Virus record (IMG/VR): IMGVR_UViG_3300036985_006248
Location: 110,281 to 174,280 of that record
Origin: a virus
Strand: one strand, 5' to 3'
Length of the DNA stretch: 64,000 nucleotides
Made by a program: the position numbers and the translations under genes. Under the pieces are notes generated by a model. That model was not told where the DNA came from. It saw only the letters and a program-made list of their open reading frames with translations, and made no database searches. Positions within the stretch are counted from its first letter, which is position 1. Each line of letters begins with the position of its first letter. This document shows, piece by piece, positions 5,854 to 64,000 of the stretch.

Positions 5854-6561
5854 CTATACCACGTTAGTTTCTTCTTTCCAAATTTTTTTATTTATCAAAA
5901 GATAAATTGTGGTGCAAGATACATCATATTTTTTAGATAAAGATTTTGTTGTATTTCCTGATTCGTGTAATTGTCGTATTTCCCTAGCCTTACCCCAATC
6001 TAATTTAGACATAGGATTTATTCTTTTTTTGGCTTTTTTTCTCATTAATTCTATAGTTTCGGCAGAGTGTTTTTTTCCATACATTGGATTCTTCTCGTTC
6101 TGTCTATTGCCTATAGCTTCTCTGATTTTTTGTTTGGTTGCATTCGTGAGCTTCTTGCCGTATGCCGGTGCGAGATGTCCCTTTTTTCCATACATCGGAT
6201 TCCTCTCCCCAGAAACGTCTGCGTGATTTTCGCTTATTCTTTTTTTGGCATCTTCACTGTATTTAATGCCCAAAGTAGAACTCGCAATTTTACAGATGTT
6301 ATATTCCGGCGTTAGAATGTCTAGAAAGTGCTGCTCTCTTAGTAACAAGCTATTGATATCAATTATTTCTTCTAGGACTTCGAATATAAAGTTTTCTTTT
6401 CCGTATTTGTCCCAAGCTCTTTGTAAATGATAATTACTATGGGTTTTGTTTTTTAATTCGCTAACGTGAGTAGAAAATCTATTTTTTATATCCACCGCGC
6501 TACCAATATAAAATTTACCATTAATACGATTTGTTATTTTATAAATGCCAGATTTTTTCAT
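5854..6561 (-). CDS. GIY-YIG homing endonuclease with NUMOD3 repeats
   Basis: Residues 5-30 carry the GIY-YIG nuclease core, GIYKITNRINGKFYIGS. It is followed by an H-x-L-Q-AW-KYG region and an E-R--Q segment typical of the fold. The middle has repeated NPMYGKK modules (near 121 and 158) that match NUMOD3 DNA-binding repeats, and the C-terminus has a helix-turn-helix-like segment. Such free-standing endonucleases cut an allele lacking them and are copied in by repair. It stands 20 bases upstream of dnaE, so that locus is its likely target. Confidence 0.9.
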   Translation of the reverse strand: MKKSGIYKITNRINGKFYIGSAVDIKNRFSTHVSELKNKTHSNYHLQRAWDKYGKENFIFEVLEEIIDINSLLLREQHFLDILTPEYNICKIASSTLGIKYSEDAKKRISENHADVSGERNPMYGKKGHLAPAYGKKLTNATKQKIREAIGNRQNEKNPMYGKKHSAETIELMRKKAKKRINPMSKLDWGKAREIRQLHESGNTTKSLSKKYDVSCTTIYLLINKKIWKEETNVV

Positions 6562-7757: not shown

Positions 7758-8138
7758 CTAAACTTGGGTCTTTAAAACATCTTTTAAACCATTTACCGCT
7801 TTATCAACTACTTTTGAGCACAGATCTAATTCCTGAGTATATTTGTACATGCCAGCTTGCATTGCTAGTAATTCCTGATTAGACATATTCTCTCTAGTTA
7901 ATGAGGTCTTTAAAATGGAATCAATCTTCATTGAACCTTTTTCCAAGGATGCAATAATTGAAGAAATGGTGCTTGAAATTTTTGAAGTTGATTCAATCTT
8001 GTTTACATGATGATTATCATGTTGTTTATTGATTGTCACATCAAATTTACTTGGTGCTGTTTTTTCTAATTGTGGACGTGGATGTTCAACAACTTTTTGT
8101 AAGCCCGCTGCTGCTATGTTAGAAAGTGGACCCGCCAT
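7758..8138 (-). CDS. type III secretion inner rod (SctI/YscI/HrpB)-like protein
   Basis: The protein has 126 residues, near the 100-115 of known inner rod subunits. Its C-terminal 40 residues follow the YscI/HrpB C-terminal pattern. This shows (S/N)-x-(D/E)-L-L-A-M-Q at 87-94, T-Q-E-L at 101-104, S-K at 108-109, and a final V-L-K-T-Q. Yersinia YscI reads NPNDLMLMQ, then QEEL, then AK at the same spacing. The inner rod joins the needle to the export apparatus in the periplasm. The N-terminal 50 residues are polar and likely disordered. The gene starts one base after the stop of a needle-like gene, an adjacency also seen in bacterial operons such as prgI-prgJ. The role in a phage is unknown. 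Confidence 0.6.
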   Translation of the reverse strand: MAGPLSNIAAAGLQKVVEHPRPQLEKTAPSKFDVTINKQHDNHHVNKIESTSKISSTISSIIASLEKGSMKIDSILKTSLTRENMSNQELLAMQAGMYKYTQELDLCSKVVDKAVNGLKDVLKTQV

Positions 8139-8139
8139 A

Positions 8140-8619
8140 TTATCTGATATTGCTAATGGAGTTTTTTGCTGTGTCGTGTTTTGTCTTTAAAACATTTGAT
8201 ATTGATGAAAACATTGTATTTTCACGCTGCATAGCCATTTGAACCTGTAGCATTTGTGAGTTCTGAGCTGACATGCTGGCTATATCAGTATTATACTGAC
8301 CTATACCGCCTGTAGCTGCCCCAGCAATTAAGTTTGGACCGCTACCACTGCCAGAGCTACCATTTAATCCTACAACGCCTGTAGCGGCGTATGAAGCACC
8401 AGAAGTGCCCCCGACTAGATTGTTAATCGATGACACTGCTGCTGAAATAACCGCTCCACCGGGTAATGCGCTTCCCAGCAATGCAGCGCCTTGTGATACG
8501 GCAGAAGCTCCAGAATATAAAGCATCATTGACCTTTTCACCAAAGTTTTTTCCCTGTGTTTGTTTTGGTAACGTTACGTTCATTGAGAGACGATTTGGCA
8601 TACTGATTACATTACTCAT
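8140..8619 (-). CDS. type III secretion needle (SctF)-like protein with long N-terminal extension
   Basis: The 159-residue protein ends in a helix that lines up without gaps with the C-terminus of Salmonella PrgI. It shares Q127, N134, S141, N142, K145, D149, I155, N157 and the terminal R159. This end forms the polymer core of the needle. Unlike PrgI (80 residues), it has a glycine-, serine- and alanine-rich extension of about 110 residues, including an AALLGSALPGGAVISAA segment that may be hydrophobic. An AAAGGAA ribosome site precedes the ATG. It is followed directly by an inner-rod-like gene. Alternatives are a fibre-like or translocator-like protein. No other secretion gene is visible in the window. 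Confidence 0.55.
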   Translation of the reverse strand: MSNVISMPNRLSMNVTLPKQTQGKNFGEKVNDALYSGASAVSQGAALLGSALPGGAVISAAVSSINNLVGGTSGASYAATGVVGLNGSSGSGSGPNLIAGAATGGIGQYNTDIASMSAQNSQMLQVQMAMQRENTMFSSISNVLKTKHDTAKNSISNIR

Positions 8620-8685
8620 AACTGTTTCCTTTAAAAAAAAAGTACCTATAGTAATTATCGGAGAATCATTGAACTAGTTGCTTAA

Positions 8686-15217: not shown

Positions 15218-18061
15218 TTAATAACACTTACTCCACCCACAACCGTCCTTACAAGTAGCACATCCATCTTGATATACTAATTTGCTATTGCATTCTGGAC
15301 AGTTGGAAGTTGAACCTGTAACTTCTTCGCCTTCTTTAATATATAGTTTTAACACCCTTGCAACTGCCTTACTAAATGTAGTCATACTTGTTGTTTCGCT
15401 CTTTAAAATTTGCTCTACAACAAATTTGACATCAGCACCATGACGTAATGAAAGAGATACCAAGCGAGTTAAGTCAGAATATTGTGTATTCTCAAATGCT
15501 TCCTTAATATCTACTGCTTCGACAGCTATATCATCAACCTGCAATAGATAATGACCTGATTTTTTCTTTATGATTTCGCCAATTTTTATATTTGTGGGAA
15601 TCTCAATCTTATCAGCTAATCCACCAAATACTTCGTATGGCTTACCATCGAATAACCCAACAAGGATTAACCACTTTTCACCCTTGACTGATACATGATG
15701 TATACCACAATTCAATGATTGCTTGCGCTTAATAGCCGCGTGTTGCTTAAAAGTATCTTTTTTAGTTTCTGTCGTTATGAGAACACCATCACGGCTGCCA
15801 TCTACATATACTGTGATTCCCTTAAGACCCAAACGCCATCCATTCATATACAATTCACCAACAACTTCTGGTGTGGTTCCCTTTGGTAGATTAATGGTAG
15901 AAGAAATTGAATGGTCGATATATTTTTGTATAGTTGCTTGTATTCTTACTCTGTTTTGCCAATTGATATTGTCGCTCTCTACGAAAAAATCAGGAGTTAT
16001 ATCTGTGTTGGCAAATTTCAAATATTCTTGAACGTTCTTATGATAAACCTTGAAGTTTATCCATCGATCTCCCATGTCATCAACAAAATCTGGCTTTGTA
16101 TCTTGCTCAGAATGGTCGAGTTTTCTGCGACGGGTATAAGAATTCTTAAAAACTGGCTCTATGCCAGAAGACGTTTGCGATTCAATAGACACTGAACCAG
16201 TGGGCGCATTTGTCAAAAGAGCGATGTTTCTACGTCCAGCTTTTGCCATCTTTTCTTTAATTTCTTCTGGAAGGCGCTGAATAAAATCATTATTCTTTTC
16301 CAACTCCCAATCAAAGATTGGAAAGGCTCCCCGCTCTTCAGCTAAATCAACGCTAGTCGAATAGGCAGCGTCACGGAAACAGTTATAGATTTTATCTATT
16401 AAGGCAATTCCCTCTTCGGAATCATAGCGTATTCCGCATCGTGCAACAGCATCAGCCAAACCATGAGTTCCTAAACCAGTTCGACGGCCATTTCGGCATG
16501 CATTCAGTAATTTATTCCAAAGTTCTTTCTCGCTTTCTGTGTCACATAAATTGATTATATTAACCAGTTTTTCAATTTCTAAATCAATTAAATCATCCGA
16601 TAGGCGCATTGCCATTTTCGTTACTCGCTCTAACTTTTCCATATCCATCTGAGCATCTTTAGTAAAAGCATTTGTTACTAAGTGTTTCAGATTTATACTT
16701 ATCAAGCGACAGCTATCGTAAGCAGAGAGGGGAATTTCTCCACAGTTTTTTACACAGAAACCCGAAGTAACAACTCCCTTTTCATCACTTACTTTGGTTA
16801 TAACATGATAATTGTGATTGTCATCGACTGTTATATTATATACGTCCTCTTGCCCAACATATTCTACAGAAACCACTTTATGGATATTCGATTCAAAAGA
16901 ATTAAATGGATAAAGGCTGTCACCGGGCTTTAAATCTTTTAATTGAGTGTAAGACAAATCTCTCTTTAAAATGCGGTGGTCGGGTGTCGCTCTAAATGTG
17001 GAACCGTCATCGAGAGTTAATTTCCAGATTTCCTTTGCTTGACCTGTCAAACGAGGATTTCTACCCATCTTTATTTCCACTTGTCCTGATACTAAATTAG
17101 TAGAATAAACAGGAACATCTTTTCCCTCTTTAGTGAGTTGTCCGATTGAGACATAATTTCGTCCATCTGCGACGGCAATCAAAGTATCACTTGTTATGCA
17201 AGGGTTCGTGGTAAGAGTCTTAAATGATGGATAGCAGTGTGCAGGAAGATTATTAATGATATTATCCCACATCAACAAACCCGGCTCTGCTGATTTAGTA
17301 GCAGAGTTGATTATTACATTCCATAGGTCTTTAGCCTTAATGGTCTTAGTAAAAGTAGGAGCGGTTGAACCAACGGGATAGTGCAAGACAAAATCTGAAT
17401 CTGTCTCAACAGCTTTCATAAAGTCATCAGTTACACGGATAGAGACATTAGCACCAGTAACTTTCTTTAAATCCTGCTTCATAAGCGCAAACTTCTCTAC
17501 GTCTGGGTGCCGAACATCGATGGAAATCATCAATGCTCCACGACGACCGTTTTGTCCTATCATACGGCAGACATAAGAATAGAAATCCGCAAAGGACCAT
17601 GCACCTGTAGTAGTGCCTGCACTATTATTAACCTTGGCGTTTTCTGGGCGTAATGTCGTTATGTCTACACCAACGCCGCAACGACGCTTGAATAAGTTAG
17701 CTAAATCTTTCCCAGCATCCATAATGGAAGTGACATTATCTGCTGGATTGTCTACAACTACACAGTTACTCAAAGAAGAAAGAGAATAATTATTTCCAAT
17801 ACCATACATTGGTGAGCCTTGTGGCACCACCCATTTAAAATCTTTAAAAAGATTAAAGATTTCTTCTTCGGAAATAGGGTTAGGATATTTTTTTTCAATA
17901 CGTGCAAACTCCTTAGCCAACCGACGATGCATATCATCAGGAGTTAATTCAAGAAAGCCTTCATCATTCTTTAAGGCATATTTAAAAAATACGTTTGTGG
18001 CAAGTTCGTCATCATTAAAATATTTCTTCGTGGCTTCCAATACTTGTTCTTTTTTGTACAT
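15218..18061 (-). CDS. nrdJ: class II (B12-dependent) ribonucleotide reductase containing a mini-intein
   Basis: NrdJ reduces ribonucleotides to deoxyribonucleotides using adenosylcobalamin. The 947-residue precursor contains SLSNCVVV (C100), the radical-fold region, and a cysteine-rich C-terminus (CPECN and CATCKDGCGWSKC) that is re-reduced by thioredoxin or glutaredoxin. An intein occupies residues 288-439. After its removal NP joins CGEIPLS, the catalytic thiyl-radical cysteine motif, giving about 795 residues, the size of NrdJ. The thioredoxin gene directly upstream fits as electron donor. No NrdB-like gene is visible, which supports class II. Confidence 0.93.
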   Translation of the reverse strand: MYKKEQVLEATKKYFNDDELATNVFFKYALKNDEGFLELTPDDMHRRLAKEFARIEKKYPNPISEEEIFNLFKDFKWVVPQGSPMYGIGNNYSLSSLSNCVVVDNPADNVTSIMDAGKDLANLFKRRCGVGVDITTLRPENAKVNNSAGTTTGAWSFADFYSYVCRMIGQNGRRGALMISIDVRHPDVEKFALMKQDLKKVTGANVSIRVTDDFMKAVETDSDFVLHYPVGSTAPTFTKTIKAKDLWNVIINSATKSAEPGLLMWDNIINNLPAHCYPSFKTLTTNPCITSDTLIAVADGRNYVSIGQLTKEGKDVPVYSTNLVSGQVEIKMGRNPRLTGQAKEIWKLTLDDGSTFRATPDHRILKRDLSYTQLKDLKPGDSLYPFNSFESNIHKVVSVEYVGQEDVYNITVDDNHNYHVITKVSDEKGVVTSGFCVKNCGEIPLSAYDSCRLISINLKHLVTNAFTKDAQMDMEKLERVTKMAMRLSDDLIDLEIEKLVNIINLCDTESEKELWNKLLNACRNGRRTGLGTHGLADAVARCGIRYDSEEGIALIDKIYNCFRDAAYSTSVDLAEERGAFPIFDWELEKNNDFIQRLPEEIKEKMAKAGRRNIALLTNAPTGSVSIESQTSSGIEPVFKNSYTRRRKLDHSEQDTKPDFVDDMGDRWINFKVYHKNVQEYLKFANTDITPDFFVESDNINWQNRVRIQATIQKYIDHSISSTINLPKGTTPEVVGELYMNGWRLGLKGITVYVDGSRDGVLITTETKKDTFKQHAAIKRKQSLNCGIHHVSVKGEKWLILVGLFDGKPYEVFGGLADKIEIPTNIKIGEIIKKKSGHYLLQVDDIAVEAVDIKEAFENTQYSDLTRLVSLSLRHGADVKFVVEQILKSETTSMTTFSKAVARVLKLYIKEGEEVTGSTSNCPECNSKLVYQDGCATCKDGCGWSKCY
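16742..17200 (-). other. mini-intein in the RNR precursor
   Basis: This segment encodes residues 288-439 of the RNR precursor. It begins with CITSDTLIAVADG (splice block A, Cys1), has T-x-D-H (TPDHRIL near 359) as block B, and ends VTSGFCVKN before Cys440. The penultimate residue is lysine rather than the usual histidine. At 152 residues there is no room for a homing endonuclease, so it is a minimal self-splicing intein. It disrupts the catalytic cysteine motif, so splicing is required for activity. Confidence 0.88.
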
Positions 18062-51162: not shown

Positions 51163-51771
51163 TTATCCTTTTACAATATCGTTTAATAATCTATTCAAGC
51201 GGTCTGCTTTTGTCCAAATTTTATTTGGATCCACAATGCGGTTTTTTCCTTCAGACATCATAAATGCGCCGGGAGTGCTTGGCTCTTGAACGAAGTCAAA
51301 ACATATAAGTTGAAAATCATCTTCAACGATTGTCTTTCCGCCTTCTTTGCGTGTACTGCCCAAGCCACGACTTGAAATGCCCAATTTAACTCCGCTTTCT
51401 ACAAGAGAACGAAGGATTTTGCCTGATGGAGTGTCAAGAACCTTTATTTTACCCATTACCCCATCCCCATTCCACCAAATATCGGTTACCATATGAGAAA
51501 CATTCTTTAAATTGACAACTGAATCTTCTGGATGGTCTAATTCTCCTAGGGCACGATGGTCAGCAACTATTTTTTTATAATTTTCAATTTCTCGATCAAG
51601 GACTTTTCGTCCATAAACACGGCCATTGCCGTTTTCGGTATCGCTCCTCTGCATAATTCCCGTGAGATACTTAGCGCCATTCTTAACTTCTAGTTTTTCC
51701 CCTTCCGATAATAAATCTTGGCAAACCATGTCAGGACACATTTCATACCATTCTCTAAGAAGTTCTTTCAT
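51163..51771 (-). CDS. prohead maturation protease (T4 gp21-like)
   Basis: The 202-residue protein has GELDHPED with H80 and GISSRGLG with S133/S134, the catalytic His and Ser of the gp21 serine protease family. T4 gp21 cleaves after (L/I)-x-E in capsid, scaffold and internal proteins during head maturation. Sites of this kind occur in the capsid protein and in four leader proteins here. Its start overlaps the stop of a GIY-YIG gene by ATGA, and its N-terminus resembles that of the endonuclease (see findings). Confidence 0.93.
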   Translation of the reverse strand: MKELLREWYEMCPDMVCQDLLSEGEKLEVKNGAKYLTGIMQRSDTENGNGRVYGRKVLDREIENYKKIVADHRALGELDHPEDSVVNLKNVSHMVTDIWWNGDGVMGKIKVLDTPSGKILRSLVESGVKLGISSRGLGSTRKEGGKTIVEDDFQLICFDFVQEPSTPGAFMMSEGKNRIVDPNKIWTKADRLNRLLNDIVKG

Positions 51772-52484
51772 TATATATTCTTCCAGTTTTTATTTTTTAC
51801 TATATTAGAAATTGCGCTCCAGCTAACTTCATAAACTCTAGAAATCACGGCAATTTTCATTCCAGTTTGGTAAAGCTCTCTTATTTTTAATACGTCTTCT
51901 TTATTTAATAGGGCTCTTGGATTATTTTCGCCCTTGGTTGCGGTACTAATTTTTTCCTTTGATTCTTCGGAGGATTTAAACCCCAGACGCGCTTTTGATA
52001 GTTTTGCTTTAGTCTCTTCTGAAAGAACCTTTCCCGTTTGTGCAAGACTCATTTTTTTCTTTGTTTCTTCAGAGTGTTTTTTACCTGTCCAAGAGTGACC
52101 ATGTTGCCGGATTCTTTCTTTCATAGCGTCGCCAAAGCTAGGCGGGTATTTATATCCTAGGGGACCACGAGGATGATGATAAATATTATATCCTACTTCT
52201 TCATTAAAAGAATTATAGAATTCCATCCAATATGTTTCTCTTTGTTCTAATACAATATGATCAAGGGCGGTGTTTTCGATTATTTCAAACTGAAACTGTT
52301 CTTGACCATATAGATTCCAAGCCTTTTGCAAATGATCATTGTGGTGTTTATTTTCTTTTAAATGTTGTCGATGCTTTGACCATCTTTGGTTAATAGCAAT
52401 AGAACTTCCAATATAAACCTTATTGTTTATAAGATTTGTTATTTTATAAATACCGATATATTCTCTAAGTAATTGTTTTGACAT
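51771..52484 (-). CDS. GIY-YIG homing endonuclease next to the prohead protease gene
   Basis: The ATG at 52484 is preferred; the TTG at 52535 would run through a hairpin. The core GIYKITNLINNKVYIGSS begins near residue 10. It is followed by an H-QRW-KHRQHL segment, NUMOD3-type repeats (GKKHSEETKKKMSLAQTGK) and a C-terminal helix-turn-helix like that of the first endonuclease. It probably targets the protease gene. Its first nine residues match the start of the protease, and there is no clear ribosome site. Confidence 0.9.
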   Translation of the reverse strand: MSKQLLREYIGIYKITNLINNKVYIGSSIAINQRWSKHRQHLKENKHHNDHLQKAWNLYGQEQFQFEIIENTALDHIVLEQRETYWMEFYNSFNEEVGYNIYHHPRGPLGYKYPPSFGDAMKERIRQHGHSWTGKKHSEETKKKMSLAQTGKVLSEETKAKLSKARLGFKSSEESKEKISTATKGENNPRALLNKEDVLKIRELYQTGMKIAVISRVYEVSWSAISNIVKNKNWKNI

Positions 52485-52501
52485 AGTTTTATATAAGGTT
52501 T

Positions 52502-52528
52502 TAGCCCTGATTTTTAAGGTCAGGGCTA
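52502..52528 (-). other. hairpin upstream of the GIY-YIG gene
   Basis: A perfect 9-base inverted repeat (TAGCCCTGA with TCAGGGCTA, 9-base loop) overlaps the stop of the 27-residue frame. No T-run follows, so it is not a good terminator. It may reduce expression of the endonuclease. Confidence 0.45.
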
Positions 52529-52609
52529 AATACAACTCCCGTTACAGCAGCGTCTCACGCCTTGTAACATATAACGACGAATATACGTAATATCTTCTTT
52601 ATTTCTCAT
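52526..52609 (-). CDS. possible 27-residue cysteine-rich peptide
   Basis: ATG at 52609 is preceded by AGAGGTG, a fair ribosome site, and opens 27 residues ending VRRCCNGSCI. It fills the gap between the membrane protein gene and the endonuclease. A real but very small gene is possible; nothing is known of its role. Confidence 0.3.
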   Translation of the reverse strand: MRNKEDITYIRRYMLQGVRRCCNGSCI

Positions 52610-55080: not shown

Positions 55081-57948
55081 TTATTTATTCTCCGTTTTTT
55101 TCTCTTCTGTAAGTAGTCGTGAGCTTAGTGATTTAAGTTTATTATCAATCTCTAACAATAATTTTTCATCTTTTTCAAAGAAGTCTTCTTTTTCTTCGTT
55201 AAAGATGCCTCTTCCTGCTCTAGAGAGATCCTTTGAGCCAGCAAATAAGTTACGATAAGCCGAAGTTACCGATTCTGGAGTGTGAGTCTTTTCTATGTGA
55301 CGGCTGCGGGCTCCTGAAGGACGTGCATCAACCGCTACTGGCTTATACCACTTGCCATTTGCTCCTTTAGTTAGATGTGACCCATCATCTCTACGACCCG
55401 GTGCTGCTAATAAATTACTTTCTTCTCCTCCAGCTTCACCCGCAGCAGCTTCTCCTCCAGCCGCTTCACCTTCCGCACCAACTTCACCACCGGGCGCGGG
55501 AACTTCGGCACCTTCTGGTGCAACGCCTAAATCAGTATTTAGTGTGCTACCGCCAACTGTGCCTGTATCTGTTGCATCACCGGATTCAACTGATTTTTCA
55601 AATTGCTTATCATAATATAAGTCTCTTTGAATACGCAAGAAATCGTTATCATTAATTTTAAATAGGTTTTCAAATACCCAACGCTTGCTAAATCCATTTT
55701 CTTTGGCTGTACTAGCGACTTCTAATTGAGCTTTAAAATGTTCTATCTCTTGTAATTCGCTAATTTTTGAAGGATTATTCAAACGTAGACGGAACTTTAA
55801 CAAATCTTCATTTCGGTAACCAAGGGTATAAAGATGGATAATACCAACCTTCTCTAACTCGCTTACTATTACTCTCTGTAGACGTTGGATGGTACGAGCG
55901 AAACGTATATCTTTTTGCGCTAAGGTGCTCTTGTCTTCTGATGCGTCTTTGCCGGATGAAAGATAAGATTGAGGTACTTTTAAAGCAGAGAAGAGTTTAT
56001 CGCGCAAGTATTGAACGTCGTCAATATCTCCTGTAAACTCACCACCCTTCAAATTTTCAATTTTTGTTCCGCTTTGTGTCCCACGAACAGGAATATAAAA
56101 GTCTTCATCGATGCTCATAGGGTTATAACGCAAGTCAACACGACCAGTGTTTGGATCAACTATTTGGTTGCGCTTCATCTGCGTCACTATCTTTTGAATA
56201 TATTGTTCAACTTCTGGTGGTGAAACATTTCCAACGTCAATGTAGAAAACTCTGCGTTCTGGCGAGCGCACGATGCGATATGCCATCATCGCATCCTCCA
56301 TTAAATTTAATTGTCTCCATATCCTTCTGGCAGGCTCCAACACTGAAGTTCCATAAGGTGAATATTTATCTTGTCCTAGAATTCTGAAATGGGCTATCTG
56401 CCAGTTTTCAAATGTAATACCGGCGCTGTTCCATTGAAACTGTACATAATTTGGATTGCTTTCGTCCTCTCCTTCTAGACGCTCTACTTCAGGTGAAGGT
56501 AAGCCCAAGACACTCTTAACACCGATCTTTTCATCGATATCTAAATAAAGAAAGAAATCACCAAACTTACACATTGTGCGGCACCAAGAAAACAAATTTG
56601 ATTCAAGGTTTAATATATTAAAATAAAGGTGATGTAATATATTTTTAATTTCTTCATTCTTGCTATCGATAATAACAACTTGACGGTATTGGTTACTTGT
56701 TGTCATTTCATCGGCATAAATATCCATGGTCGATGCAATCTCGGGCGTGTTATGAGATATCACACTATCAGTAGCAAAGTTTTTGTACCCGTCTACGGTT
56801 AAGTCATATAAATCAATAAACCCGTAATATTCAACAGAAGCAACCTTATGGTTGGCGTAATTCTCCGCAAAATCTGTAAAGTTTTTGTAACCGTTAGCTC
56901 TAATACGGTTATTTAACTTCATGTAGGTCGTGCCGAGTTTTTCTGCTAGCTGATTTGAATTCATGTCCTTTGTGTAGGCAGAACAAATCATATTAAAATC
57001 TAAAGTCTTGTCAAAACGAGGGTTTTTATCACCATCATTATTCTGTCCCGCGTTTTTCCAATCGGCATTGTAAGTTTTGGCAAATACTTCGAAGTTCTTA
57101 AAACCTTTGGACTTTAATTTGCGTTTAATTGTCGGCGGATTTGTGTTCAAAATCTTGCACAGATTATTTTGATTGTATCCTCTAGTATCACAAACGCTCA
57201 ATATCTTTTCAAACGTAATATCTTTACGTTCCGCAGGATTGTTGTTCTTCATCCATTCTGAATGTCGCTTGCTAAATTGGTCCCACCAACCATCTTCTTC
57301 ATCTTTCTGACCGTGGATCAAATCTTTACGGTAAAAGGGCATCATGGCATCACCAGTTTTAAGTTGGGAAATGGTGCGATAAGAGCCGTCTCTTAACATG
57401 AGACGGTGGTCTTCGGTTCCAATTATTTCTTGGCCGTTATCAAATGTGACTTTCCAAGCATGGTCAGTTCTCGTTTTTCTCGCTTGACGACCAATTGCTG
57501 GGACAATTTGTTTTTTTGTATGGTCGTATGAATAAACGATGAATTCCTTGTCTAATCCATTCTCGGACAACTCACGCAATGTCTTATATCCATTTGGTAC
57601 AGCAATTTTTGTATCGCCGTGAAGACAAAACTCCATTTGATCAAAGTCACTATAGCGTTCTGCACGACTTTGATTAGCCATGATGTTGCTTTGGATAGAT
57701 TCAAAGGGGTTATAGCTTTTCTTCTTGAAGTTCTGTCCGCTGGCACTAGTAAACTTATAGCGGTCTAAGTCACGACGCTTAAAACGTACCTGTGACTGGT
57801 CACGAAAACTGGATAGAGGACCAGAGAATAATCTGGTTAAGCCCGTATACAGGGGCGAATCGTTATTACGAGGATTTCTCTTTCCTCCTTGACCATTTAT
57901 TTTACTGTTTAATGGATTACCTTTTTTAAAACCGTTATTGTCTGCCAT
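55081..57948 (-). CDS. portal protein (gp20-like) containing an intein
   Basis: The precursor has 955 residues. Residues 1-107 and 401 onward form the portal vertex protein, a dodecamer at the DNA entry point. After splicing DFDQMEF joins TPEIASTMDIYADE, and GTSVLEPARRIWRQLNLMED near 530 is a portal-family stretch. Residues 108-400 are an intein. A Gly/Ala/Glu-rich linker near 800-850 is followed by a C-terminal segment (GRRDDGSHLTKGANGKWYKP) not seen in T4 gp20. The order of terminase then portal is the T4-like one. Confidence 0.9.
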   Translation of the reverse strand: MADNNGFKKGNPLNSKINGQGGKRNPRNNDSPLYTGLTRLFSGPLSSFRDQSQVRFKRRDLDRYKFTSASGQNFKKKSYNPFESIQSNIMANQSRAERYSDFDQMEFCLHGDTKIAVPNGYKTLRELSENGLDKEFIVYSYDHTKKQIVPAIGRQARKTRTDHAWKVTFDNGQEIIGTEDHRLMLRDGSYRTISQLKTGDAMMPFYRKDLIHGQKDEEDGWWDQFSKRHSEWMKNNNPAERKDITFEKILSVCDTRGYNQNNLCKILNTNPPTIKRKLKSKGFKNFEVFAKTYNADWKNAGQNNDGDKNPRFDKTLDFNMICSAYTKDMNSNQLAEKLGTTYMKLNNRIRANGYKNFTDFAENYANHKVASVEYYGFIDLYDLTVDGYKNFATDSVISHNTPEIASTMDIYADEMTTSNQYRQVVIIDSKNEEIKNILHHLYFNILNLESNLFSWCRTMCKFGDFFLYLDIDEKIGVKSVLGLPSPEVERLEGEDESNPNYVQFQWNSAGITFENWQIAHFRILGQDKYSPYGTSVLEPARRIWRQLNLMEDAMMAYRIVRSPERRVFYIDVGNVSPPEVEQYIQKIVTQMKRNQIVDPNTGRVDLRYNPMSIDEDFYIPVRGTQSGTKIENLKGGEFTGDIDDVQYLRDKLFSALKVPQSYLSSGKDASEDKSTLAQKDIRFARTIQRLQRVIVSELEKVGIIHLYTLGYRNEDLLKFRLRLNNPSKISELQEIEHFKAQLEVASTAKENGFSKRWVFENLFKINDNDFLRIQRDLYYDKQFEKSVESGDATDTGTVGGSTLNTDLGVAPEGAEVPAPGGEVGAEGEAAGGEAAAGEAGGEESNLLAAPGRRDDGSHLTKGANGKWYKPVAVDARPSGARSRHIEKTHTPESVTSAYRNLFAGSKDLSRAGRGIFNEEKEDFFEKDEKLLLEIDNKLKSLSSRLLTEEKKTENK
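56749..57627 (-). other. intein in the portal precursor with DNA-binding repeats
   Basis: This encodes residues 108-400. It starts with CLHGDTKIAVPNG (Cys1), has block B as GTEDHRLML near 177, and ends VISHN before Thr401, so the +1 nucleophile is Thr. Between the splice blocks lie about 150 residues with two helix-turn-helix-type repeats (ending KGFKNFEVFA near 281 and NGYKNFTDFA near 352) and a NUMOD3-like segment (EWMKNNNPAER). No LAGLIDADG or HNH motif is seen, so a nuclease is not evident. Confidence 0.85.
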
Positions 57949-62053: not shown

Positions 62054-64000
62054 TTATTGGTTCACGTAAGCGTATCCATCTTTTCTGTCAATAACTATTT
62101 GCATGTCTACACAATCTTTTAGGCTGTCCAAATGTGATATTACGATAACAGTCTTAAAATATCCCTTGACCAAATCGAGAATACGAACAAACCCATCTAA
62201 ATTTTCTGCATCCAAGGCTGTTCCCGGCTCATCCATCACAAATATATCTGCTTTTGGGAGGGTAGTAACGTTTAATAACGCCAGCCGGATAGCCGTCGAG
62301 GCCAAAGTCTTTTCTGCGCCACTGCCCATTTCCAGTGGCCTAGCGTCATACTTAGGGTGCTTAATCATAATATCCAGTTTATCGTCTTCGTTCTCTAAGT
62401 AAATAGAGAATTCCACTACATTTGCCAAGATTTTAGCAATTTCTTGGTTAATTTCTGGCAGCTTGCTCTTGATAAGCTCATAACTTATACCACTTGGATG
62501 CATACAAGTTAAGAACAAATCATATGCTGAATATTGTTTGCGTAGGTCTTCCAACTCTTCTTTTTGTTTGCAAAATATCTCTATCTTCGCATTAATAGAA
62601 CCTTGCATTTTATAAAGTTCAACTATCTCACGTTCTGTGTCACTTAATTCTTTGGTATGAATTGTTACATTGCTTTTAGCCGCATCGCGGTCAGCGACTA
62701 ACTTTTCATAGTTTTCTATTGCTTCACGATTTTGGTCGTACAGCTTTAATTTTTCAGTATTATCGTGAATATTCTTTTCTAATATGACAATAGAATTCTT
62801 ATTCTTCTCAATTTTAAGTTGGCTCGTGGATATCTTGGAAGTAACTTCTGTACGCTTCTTCTTTATTTCTACTAGTTTCTTCATTCCATCTGATACTTCT
62901 GAGTTTAGGGCGTTAGAATGCCCCTGTAACAGCCCCAGCTTGCCATCCATGGCATTATGATTCGTATTTAGGTCTGGGAGTGCCTCTTTGGCAGCAAATG
63001 CGTCCTTGATGAATTTACACGTAGGAAACTTATCCCCACAAGGAACTTGGTCAAGAAGCTTAATTTTCTTTTCCACACTGGATAGCTCATTTTCTGACAA
63101 TGAGAATTCTTTTTCTAGACCATGTAGTTGTTTCTTAAGTAAAGATAATTCTTTATCTTTTTCGATCAAGTCTGGTTCGTTGACTGTTGTTAAAAATTGT
63201 TCTATTTTAACGAGTAATTCCTCATGCTTACTGATTTGAGTTTCGAGTGAGGCACTCTCTTCAACTAGACTTTTGCTTTCTTTGTGAGATTGCTCAAGTT
63301 TGTGTTTTAAATCATCATAATTAATTATTGAAGATGGGACATTAGCAATGCTCTTTTGTAATTGACAAAGAAACTCATTGGCATCGATGACTTTTTTACG
63401 TATTTCTTCTACTTTTGTTTTGCTCTGACTCAATCCGATTTCAACTCCGCTTAATTGGAATTCGGCAGTTGAAATATCTTTTTTATACTCTACGCCTTCT
63501 AATTTTTTTAATAAGCCTTTCAACTCGGCGCTTTCTTCCTTGGCTAACTTGAATTTCTTATCAAAGTTTTCCAAATCAAGAAACTTGGCAAGGATCTCCT
63601 TACGTTTTGTGGAACCCTCAGAAATAAAAGATAAGTATCCAAATTGGCTAGCCATAGAAGTTAGAAAAAAGTCATCGACTGAACCAAGAAAGCGACGGAT
63701 ATTCTTATCCGTATCATTACGGGCAAGGCCATTCAATAATTCATTAGTAGAAGTAAACTCAACATCGGTCTTTGCTTCTGTCGTTTCCACACCTTTCAGC
63801 TTTTTAATATACTTTTCGGATTTACGTTCAATAATATAATCTGATTGGTCGATGCGAATGGTAACCTTACCACGACCATGCGTGTTATTCTGATTAATGA
63901 CATTTAAATTCTTTCTATTGTTTTTTGAAGTGGTATTAAAAATAGAATATAACAAAGCATCAATAACAGAGGATTTACCGCTATAATTTTTACCAAAGAT
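62054..64000 (-). CDS. Rad50/SbcC-family ATPase (gp46-like), 5' end outside the window
   Basis: The open frame runs off the end of the window. At its edge the sequence reads GKNYSGKSSVIDALLYS, the Walker A motif, so only a few dozen residues are missing. A long coiled coil with a CGDKFPTC apex near the middle fits the zinc-hook position, though the usual CxxC is absent. The C-terminal head has MGSGAEKTLAS (signature) and KADIFVMDEPGTALD (Walker B). It would pair with a gp47-type nuclease in recombination and host-DNA degradation. Confidence 0.92.
   Translation of the reverse strand: MFGKNYSGKSSVIDALLYSIFNTTSKNNRKNLNVINQNNTHGRGKVTIRIDQSDYIIERKSEKYIKKLKGVETTEAKTDVEFTSTNELLNGLARNDTDKNIRRFLGSVDDFFLTSMASQFGYLSFISEGSTKRKEILAKFLDLENFDKKFKLAKEESAELKGLLKKLEGVEYKKDISTAEFQLSGVEIGLSQSKTKVEEIRKKVIDANEFLCQLQKSIANVPSSIINYDDLKHKLEQSHKESKSLVEESASLETQISKHEELLVKIEQFLTTVNEPDLIEKDKELSLLKKQLHGLEKEFSLSENELSSVEKKIKLLDQVPCGDKFPTCKFIKDAFAAKEALPDLNTNHNAMDGKLGLLQGHSNALNSEVSDGMKKLVEIKKKRTEVTSKISTSQLKIEKNKNSIVILEKNIHDNTEKLKLYDQNREAIENYEKLVADRDAAKSNVTIHTKELSDTEREIVELYKMQGSINAKIEIFCKQKEELEDLRKQYSAYDLFLTCMHPSGISYELIKSKLPEINQEIAKILANVVEFSIYLENEDDKLDIMIKHPKYDARPLEMGSGAEKTLASTAIRLALLNVTTLPKADIFVMDEPGTALDAENLDGFVRILDLVKGYFKTVIVISHLDSLKDCVDMQIVIDRKDGYAYVNQ

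Follow-up and report, generated by a model that had tools for sequence, protein, structure and literature searches.

Host-derived SctI and needle-module genes of the myxobacterial type III secretion system, with a host-type promoter motif, in large phages of probable Myxococcota hosts

Organization of the locus

The window analyzed here is a stretch of 64,000 nucleotides corresponding to positions 110281-174280 of a virus record of 174,280 bp (IMG/VR IMGVR_UViG_3300036985_006248). It carries genes for a T4-like portal, a sheath, a major head protein, a tape-measure-like protein, DNA polymerase III alpha and ribonucleotide reductase, so it belongs to a real large myovirus. Inteins were detected (Pfam Intein_splicing) in the portal protein (55081-57948, residues 120-400) and in the ribonucleotide reductase (15218-18061, residues 297-431), and GIY-YIG homing endonuclease-like genes were found at 5854-6561 (by Pfam) and at 51771-52535 (by eye). 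Two adjacent genes of the minus strand, separated by one base, each with its own ATG and located among small accessory genes, were studied in detail and named P2 (159 aa) and P1 (126 aa). The features of the locus, in the direction of transcription, were the following:

8655..8681 (-): host T3SS*-type promoter motif GCAACTAGTTCAATGATTCTCCGATAA (GCAAC-N15-CCGATAA), about 36 nt upstream of the needle-module gene
8626..8632 (-): Shine-Dalgarno-like AAAGGAA before the 159-aa gene, read from the sequence
8140..8619 (-): needle-module protein P2, 159 aa, homologue of a protein encoded in Myxococcota T3SS* clusters
8413..8544 (-): predicted hydrophobic helical hairpin of P2 (residues 26-69)
8143..8283 (-): SctF-like C-terminal module of P2 (residues 113-159), predicted as one long helix
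7758..8138 (-): inner-rod protein SctI relative P1, 126 aa
7764..7988 (-): predicted two-helix C-terminal core of P1 (residues 51-125)

The original prediction, made from the sequence alone, had described this pair as resembling the needle (SctF) and inner rod (SctI) of type III secretion systems, and this observation was confirmed, with the correction that the promoter, which had been placed just downstream, lies upstream of the pair in the direction of transcription.

Sequence and structure comparisons of P1 and P2

The best Pfam hit of P1 was T3SS_basalb_I (YscI/HrpB, PF17001; E 7.6e-4), matching residues 51-125 up to the end of the profile, and its only NCBIfam hit was SctI (NF038054; E 1.8e-3). 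The score against PF17001 was 20.3 bits, with a curated cut-off of 32.4 bits; host homologues tested singly also fell short of it (13.7 and 19.1 bits), and SctI is listed in the myxobacterial cluster in published work (PMC10433427), so the cut-off may not define this clade. The only Pfam hit of P2 was T3SS_needle_F (PF09392; E 0.17, residues 113-158), whose score of 12.5 bits was below the cut-off of 29.4 bits. Although each of these single scores is below the curated cut-off and weak alone, they are more than chance for three reasons. First, all 28 members of the SctI-like family matched T3SS_basalb_I at E <= 1 (best 2.2e-4). Second, the relatives are genes of real T3SS clusters. Third, a protein sharing the C-terminal module of P2, encoded at a Myxococcota locus labelled L107, passed the Pfam needle cut-off (33.5 bits against 29.4; TIGR02105 E 5.8e-6) and matched the P2 module profile at 42.6 bits. 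PF09392 was also the most frequent family among the relatives of P2 (7 of 22, best E 0.0026). The resemblance of the C-terminus to Salmonella PrgI, put forward in the original prediction, would agree with the PrgI sequence.

P2 is not, however, a canonical needle protein of about 70-90 residues with a helix-turn-helix along its whole length. It is twice needle length, and its AlphaFold2 model predicted, with low confidence, a hydrophobic N-terminal hairpin (helices 26-48 and 55-69) and one long C-terminal helix, the latter being the part of best confidence (pLDDT 69-88). Therefore, P2 was not classified as SctF, and the SctF assignment holds only for its C-terminal 45 residues. The model of P1 showed helices 51-81 and 87-125 after a disordered N-terminus. 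Both models (mean pLDDT 61 and 53) agree with a two-helix rod protein and a hairpin plus long helix, but are too weak to prove either. Foldseek searches with them gave nothing significant; a Salmonella needle-complex chain (7ah9_1L) ranked second for P1 at E 6.6, which is not evidence. Searches of PHROGs, of phage records and of PDB sequences found no relatives or no significant ones, and no phage family matched either protein. Hence, neither of the outcomes that had been set beforehand as refuting the prediction, the absence of a significant family hit or matches only to unrelated phage families, was obtained.

Related cassettes in other phages

Four further IMG/VR lineages carrying the cassette were found, labelled L002/L003 (contigs of 48.7 and 35.1 kb), L006 (235.7 kb), L012/L013 and L129. 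In all of these it was preceded by a third gene, P5, encoding a protein of about 272 aa whose last 40 residues resemble the C-terminus of P2. In L012, a homing-endonuclease-like gene (L012:8841-9803) was inserted between P5 and P2, yet all three frames were intact. The L006 record has a terminase 51% identical to that of the window, so it is a related phage, whereas the viral nature of the other contigs rests on the classification of IMG/VR. A PilX-like minor pilin gene and an FtsH-like protease gene (L002:11502-13898) lie a few kb from the cassette of the L002 phage. The 633-aa ORF of the window at 62054 first seemed to match this FtsH gene because the lengths are equal, but by eye it is an SbcC-like coiled-coil protein and the agreement is a coincidence.

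Host homologues and phylogeny

To trace the origin of the genes, a genome scan was carried out with the SctI core, which returned 34 loci, nearly all titled Myxococcota, Myxococcales, Deltaproteobacteria or named myxobacteria (Archangium, Corallococcus, Hyalangium), up to 89% identical over 53 residues. In these genomes the homologues of P2 and P1 lie in one T3SS cluster, in the order P2, TPR protein, a protein of about 130 aa, sigma factor, SctI, SctJ, SctQ and export genes including SctT and a SctU-like gene, with SctV further on. The gene beside the host SctI was supported as SctJ (YscJ_FliF E 7e-23, III_secr_YscJ E 8e-42), while no SctJ is present at that place in the phage. The TPR gene directly after P2 in the hosts (L071:17205-17708 in Corallococcus, L016:7290-7712 and similar) likely encodes its chaperone, and it was not detected in the window phage with a query of 60 aa. 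A second, shorter T3SS locus in Myxococcaceae (L084, L085, L086, L089) has P2, SctI, a SctJ-like gene, SctQ-like and export genes in close succession (gene names by eye), so that P2 holds the position of the needle gene in prgI-prgJ-prgK. Profile searches of 174 Myxococcota genomes found the SctI family in 144 and the P2 family in 142 of them. These loci fit the long and short "Myxo" variants described by Abby and Rocha (PMC3459982) and the T3SS* shown to act in prey killing and lysis by Myxococcus xanthus (PMC10433427, PMC12075869), although M. xanthus itself was not identified among the genomes used.

P2 of the window was 76% identical to two copies from Archangium MAGs (L046/L048), but only about 35% identical to those of the other phages, and P1 was 57% identical to an Archangium MAG SctI. 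Trees placed the window phage with these MAGs and the other phages with Myxococcota ANT-56. Holding the phage copies together as one clade was rejected by the AU test for P2 (p = 3e-6, or 5.9e-5 with the fifth phage) and for P1 (p = 0.004). The branch of the window P1 was long (1.18), so its exact place in the tree is less certain. Either two captures or one capture followed by replacement from a new host would fit these results. Furthermore, P2 and SctI are neighbours in all of the phages, but about 1.65 kb apart in the main clusters of the nearest hosts.

P5 is host-derived too. A genome scan with back-translated patterns of the 272-aa protein found nothing, but a profile search of Myxococcota found a homologue of about 371 aa in the ANT-56 genome, 50-60% identical over its C-terminal part and located downstream of a SctU-like gene and a TPR gene (by eye). 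That is the slot in which Corallococcus and Archangium have needle-sized genes of 72-73 aa. The phage P5 lacks an internal stretch of about 100 residues. The phage SctI was likewise shorter, 121-135 aa against 157-214 aa in host main clusters, where the host lengths include uncertain starts; in both cases the two ends are kept.

The needle-module family of Myxococcota

When the 174 Myxococcota genomes were searched with the Pfam SctF model, hits were obtained in 31, two of them having hits over the curated cut-off. All 12 loci returned encode proteins whose extreme C-terminus is the P2-type module (11 of 12 loci at E < 0.01). In a Corallococcus genome, P2 was the genome-wide best SctF hit, with SctI second. 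Additionally, the Archangium lansinium cluster (L070:3532-6196; genome contig G003:C1) has six tandem copies of a 73-aa gene and Corallococcus a 72-aa gene (L071:1310-1528) with the same C-terminal pattern, and these SctF-sized proteins are candidate needle subunits. Many other Myxococcota proteins of 220-680 aa (genomes G009, G011, G015, G017, G101, G108, G152 and others; loci L090-L096 and L106-L117) end in the same needle-type module, and some have the same promoter motif, representing a possible family of T3SS* substrates or effectors.

A promoter motif shared by phages and hosts

A generic k-mer search of the upstream regions of the window gave no common phage promoter. The motif GCAAC-N15-CCGATAA was instead revealed by comparing the upstream regions of phages and hosts. 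It occurs upstream of P2 at 8655-8681, its only exact occurrence in the 174-kb record, whereas a Markov estimate expects 0.006 in the 64-kb window. The same motif or a close variant precedes the host P2 genes, the six tandem 73-aa genes (each with a GAAAC-N15-CCGATAA-type motif), the 72-aa gene (GAAAC-N15-CCGATAA-type) and several longer needle-module genes, mostly 18-75 nt from the start. It also precedes the cassettes of the other phages, as a GAAAC variant in L002, L006 and L012 and in the exact form in L129. Its -10 part resembles the FliA/sigma-28 element GCCGATAA, and the sigma factor encoded in the host cluster is of the FliA/WhiG type (TIGR02479 E 9e-50; 33% identical to E. coli FliA). 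That this sigma factor reads the promoter is an inference.

Selection and residence in the phage genomes

Between L002 and L006, dN/dS was about 0.07 for P2, 0.10 for P1 and 0.06 for P5, indicating purifying selection, although the values are rough because dS (1.6-2.0) is near saturation. The GC content of the cassette was 39%, like that of the phage (38%) and unlike that of the likely donors, the Archangium MAGs (64-67%). The genes are therefore long resident and maintained, and not a chimera.

Discussion

The pair is best explained as a T3SS* cassette taken by a large T4-like myovirus from a Myxococcota host, encoding the inner-rod subunit SctI and a needle-module subunit behind the host's own type of T3SS* promoter, an explanation held with reasonable confidence. 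The analysis itself showed the homology to host T3SS* genes, at least two separate derivations from different host lineages, the shared promoter motif, the purifying selection and the internal shortening with both ends kept. What follows is inferred from sequence alone, including the host of the window phage, which is deduced only from the captured genes, and any function of these proteins in forming an inner rod or polymerizing as a needle. In this view, the host's FliA/WhiG-type sigma factor would switch the cassette on in the infected cell when the predation machine is being made, the host's export gate would secrete the phage subunits, and these would co-assemble with or replace host subunits on the SctJ ring, so that the phage would remodel the axial part of the machine. 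The host-type promoter, the host-lineage-matched sequences and the presence of only exported axial subunits point to such a co-assembly. The internal deletions suggest altered subunits, and disarming or locking the machine with shortened "poison" subunits is tentatively regarded as the likeliest effect, although less likely than not. The shortening may also be ordinary phage compaction. The broader reading, that large phages of predatory bacteria repeatedly capture such subunits with their dedicated type of promoter and use altered copies to reprogram or disarm the machine during infection, a phage strategy aimed at the structural core of a secretion system, and that the "needleless" T3SS* has a large family of needle-module proteins under one type of promoter, is considered somewhat more likely than not.

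The interpretation given in the original prediction was thus partly supported. The SctI assignment is well supported and, of the three roles proposed for the pair, the inhibition or hijacking of a host injectisome fits best, because the genes come from the T3SS of Myxococcota and keep its promoter, whereas nothing supports a channel for DNA passage or a virion filament.

Alternatively, the phage could supply fast-turnover axial subunits so that infected cells keep lysing and feeding on prey, as cyanophage psbA keeps photosynthesis running. The host-type promoter is kept, so expression would follow host use of the system, and the conserved N- and C-termini and the purifying selection argue for working subunits, but SctI and P5 have internal deletions relative to hosts and no other predation gene was noticed near the window cassette; this remains possible but doubtful. 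A less likely role is the masking of a receptor, if the T3SS* tip were a phage receptor changed by phage subunits to exclude superinfection. The variants match different host lineages and the axial parts are the candidate exposed parts, but no T3SS*-dependent phage is known and the T3SS* lacks a secretin (PMC10433427), which makes exposure uncertain. A rod, channel or filament of the phage's own is very unlikely: needle and rod proteins do polymerize into channels, but the cassette lies among small accessory genes and not tail or head genes, has a host T3SS*-type promoter and host-lineage-matched variants, and a contractile tail is already encoded. Passenger genes of no use to the phage, since phages pick up host genes at random, or an assembly chimera are equally disfavoured by the five lineages, the two derivations, the purifying selection, the phage-like GC content and the intact frames around the insertion in L012. 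Chance resemblance in an unrelated phage family, which the single scores below cut-off and the fold searches might have suggested, is refuted by the identity of up to 76% to genes inside T3SS loci and the 28 of 28 SctI-family members matching PF17001.

Host-derived auxiliary genes in phages are known, but no report of a phage carrying structural subunits of an injectisome with the injectisome's type of promoter was found in a limited search of the open-access literature, and this is probably the first case within those limits. If the proposed reading is true, phages act on the predation machinery of bacterial predators, which affects the predator-prey balance in soil and sea. The results also make an open question testable, since the myxobacterial T3SS* is described as lacking a needle (PMC3459982, PMC12075869), yet its clusters encode SctF-sized and longer proteins with an SctF-like C-terminal module behind a shared promoter motif. 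The "needleless" T3SS* thus appears to encode needle-type subunits, giving candidate needle or effector genes for a system whose effectors and delivery route are unknown.

Comparison with known systems

The closest system is the "needleless" T3SS* of M. xanthus (MXAN_2434-2464; PMC10433427, PMC12075869). The phage proteins are homologues of components encoded in the corresponding Myxococcota clusters, namely SctI and the needle-module protein next to a TPR gene and a FliA/WhiG-type sigma gene, with the same promoter motif. Nevertheless, the phage has only axial subunits, with no ring, export gate or ATPase gene seen in the window, P2 and SctI are adjacent, and SctI is shortened inside. With the classical SctF-SctI-SctJ (PrgI-PrgJ-PrgK) of injectisomes the pair shares the SctF-like C-terminal helix and the SctI C-terminal core, and the short myxobacterial variant has the order P2-SctI-SctJ, but P2 has 159 aa with a hydrophobic N-terminal half and the phage cassette lacks SctJ. 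Phage-borne T3SS effector genes, such as those of the SopE phage, are also genes connected with a host T3SS, but they are cargo effectors on temperate phages, whereas here structural subunits of the machine are carried by a T4-like large phage. Finally, the auxiliary genes psbA and psbD of cyanophages are likewise host-derived genes for parts of a host machine that were captured repeatedly, whereas in the present case the target is a secretion and predation apparatus, SctI is internally shortened and a host-type promoter is retained.
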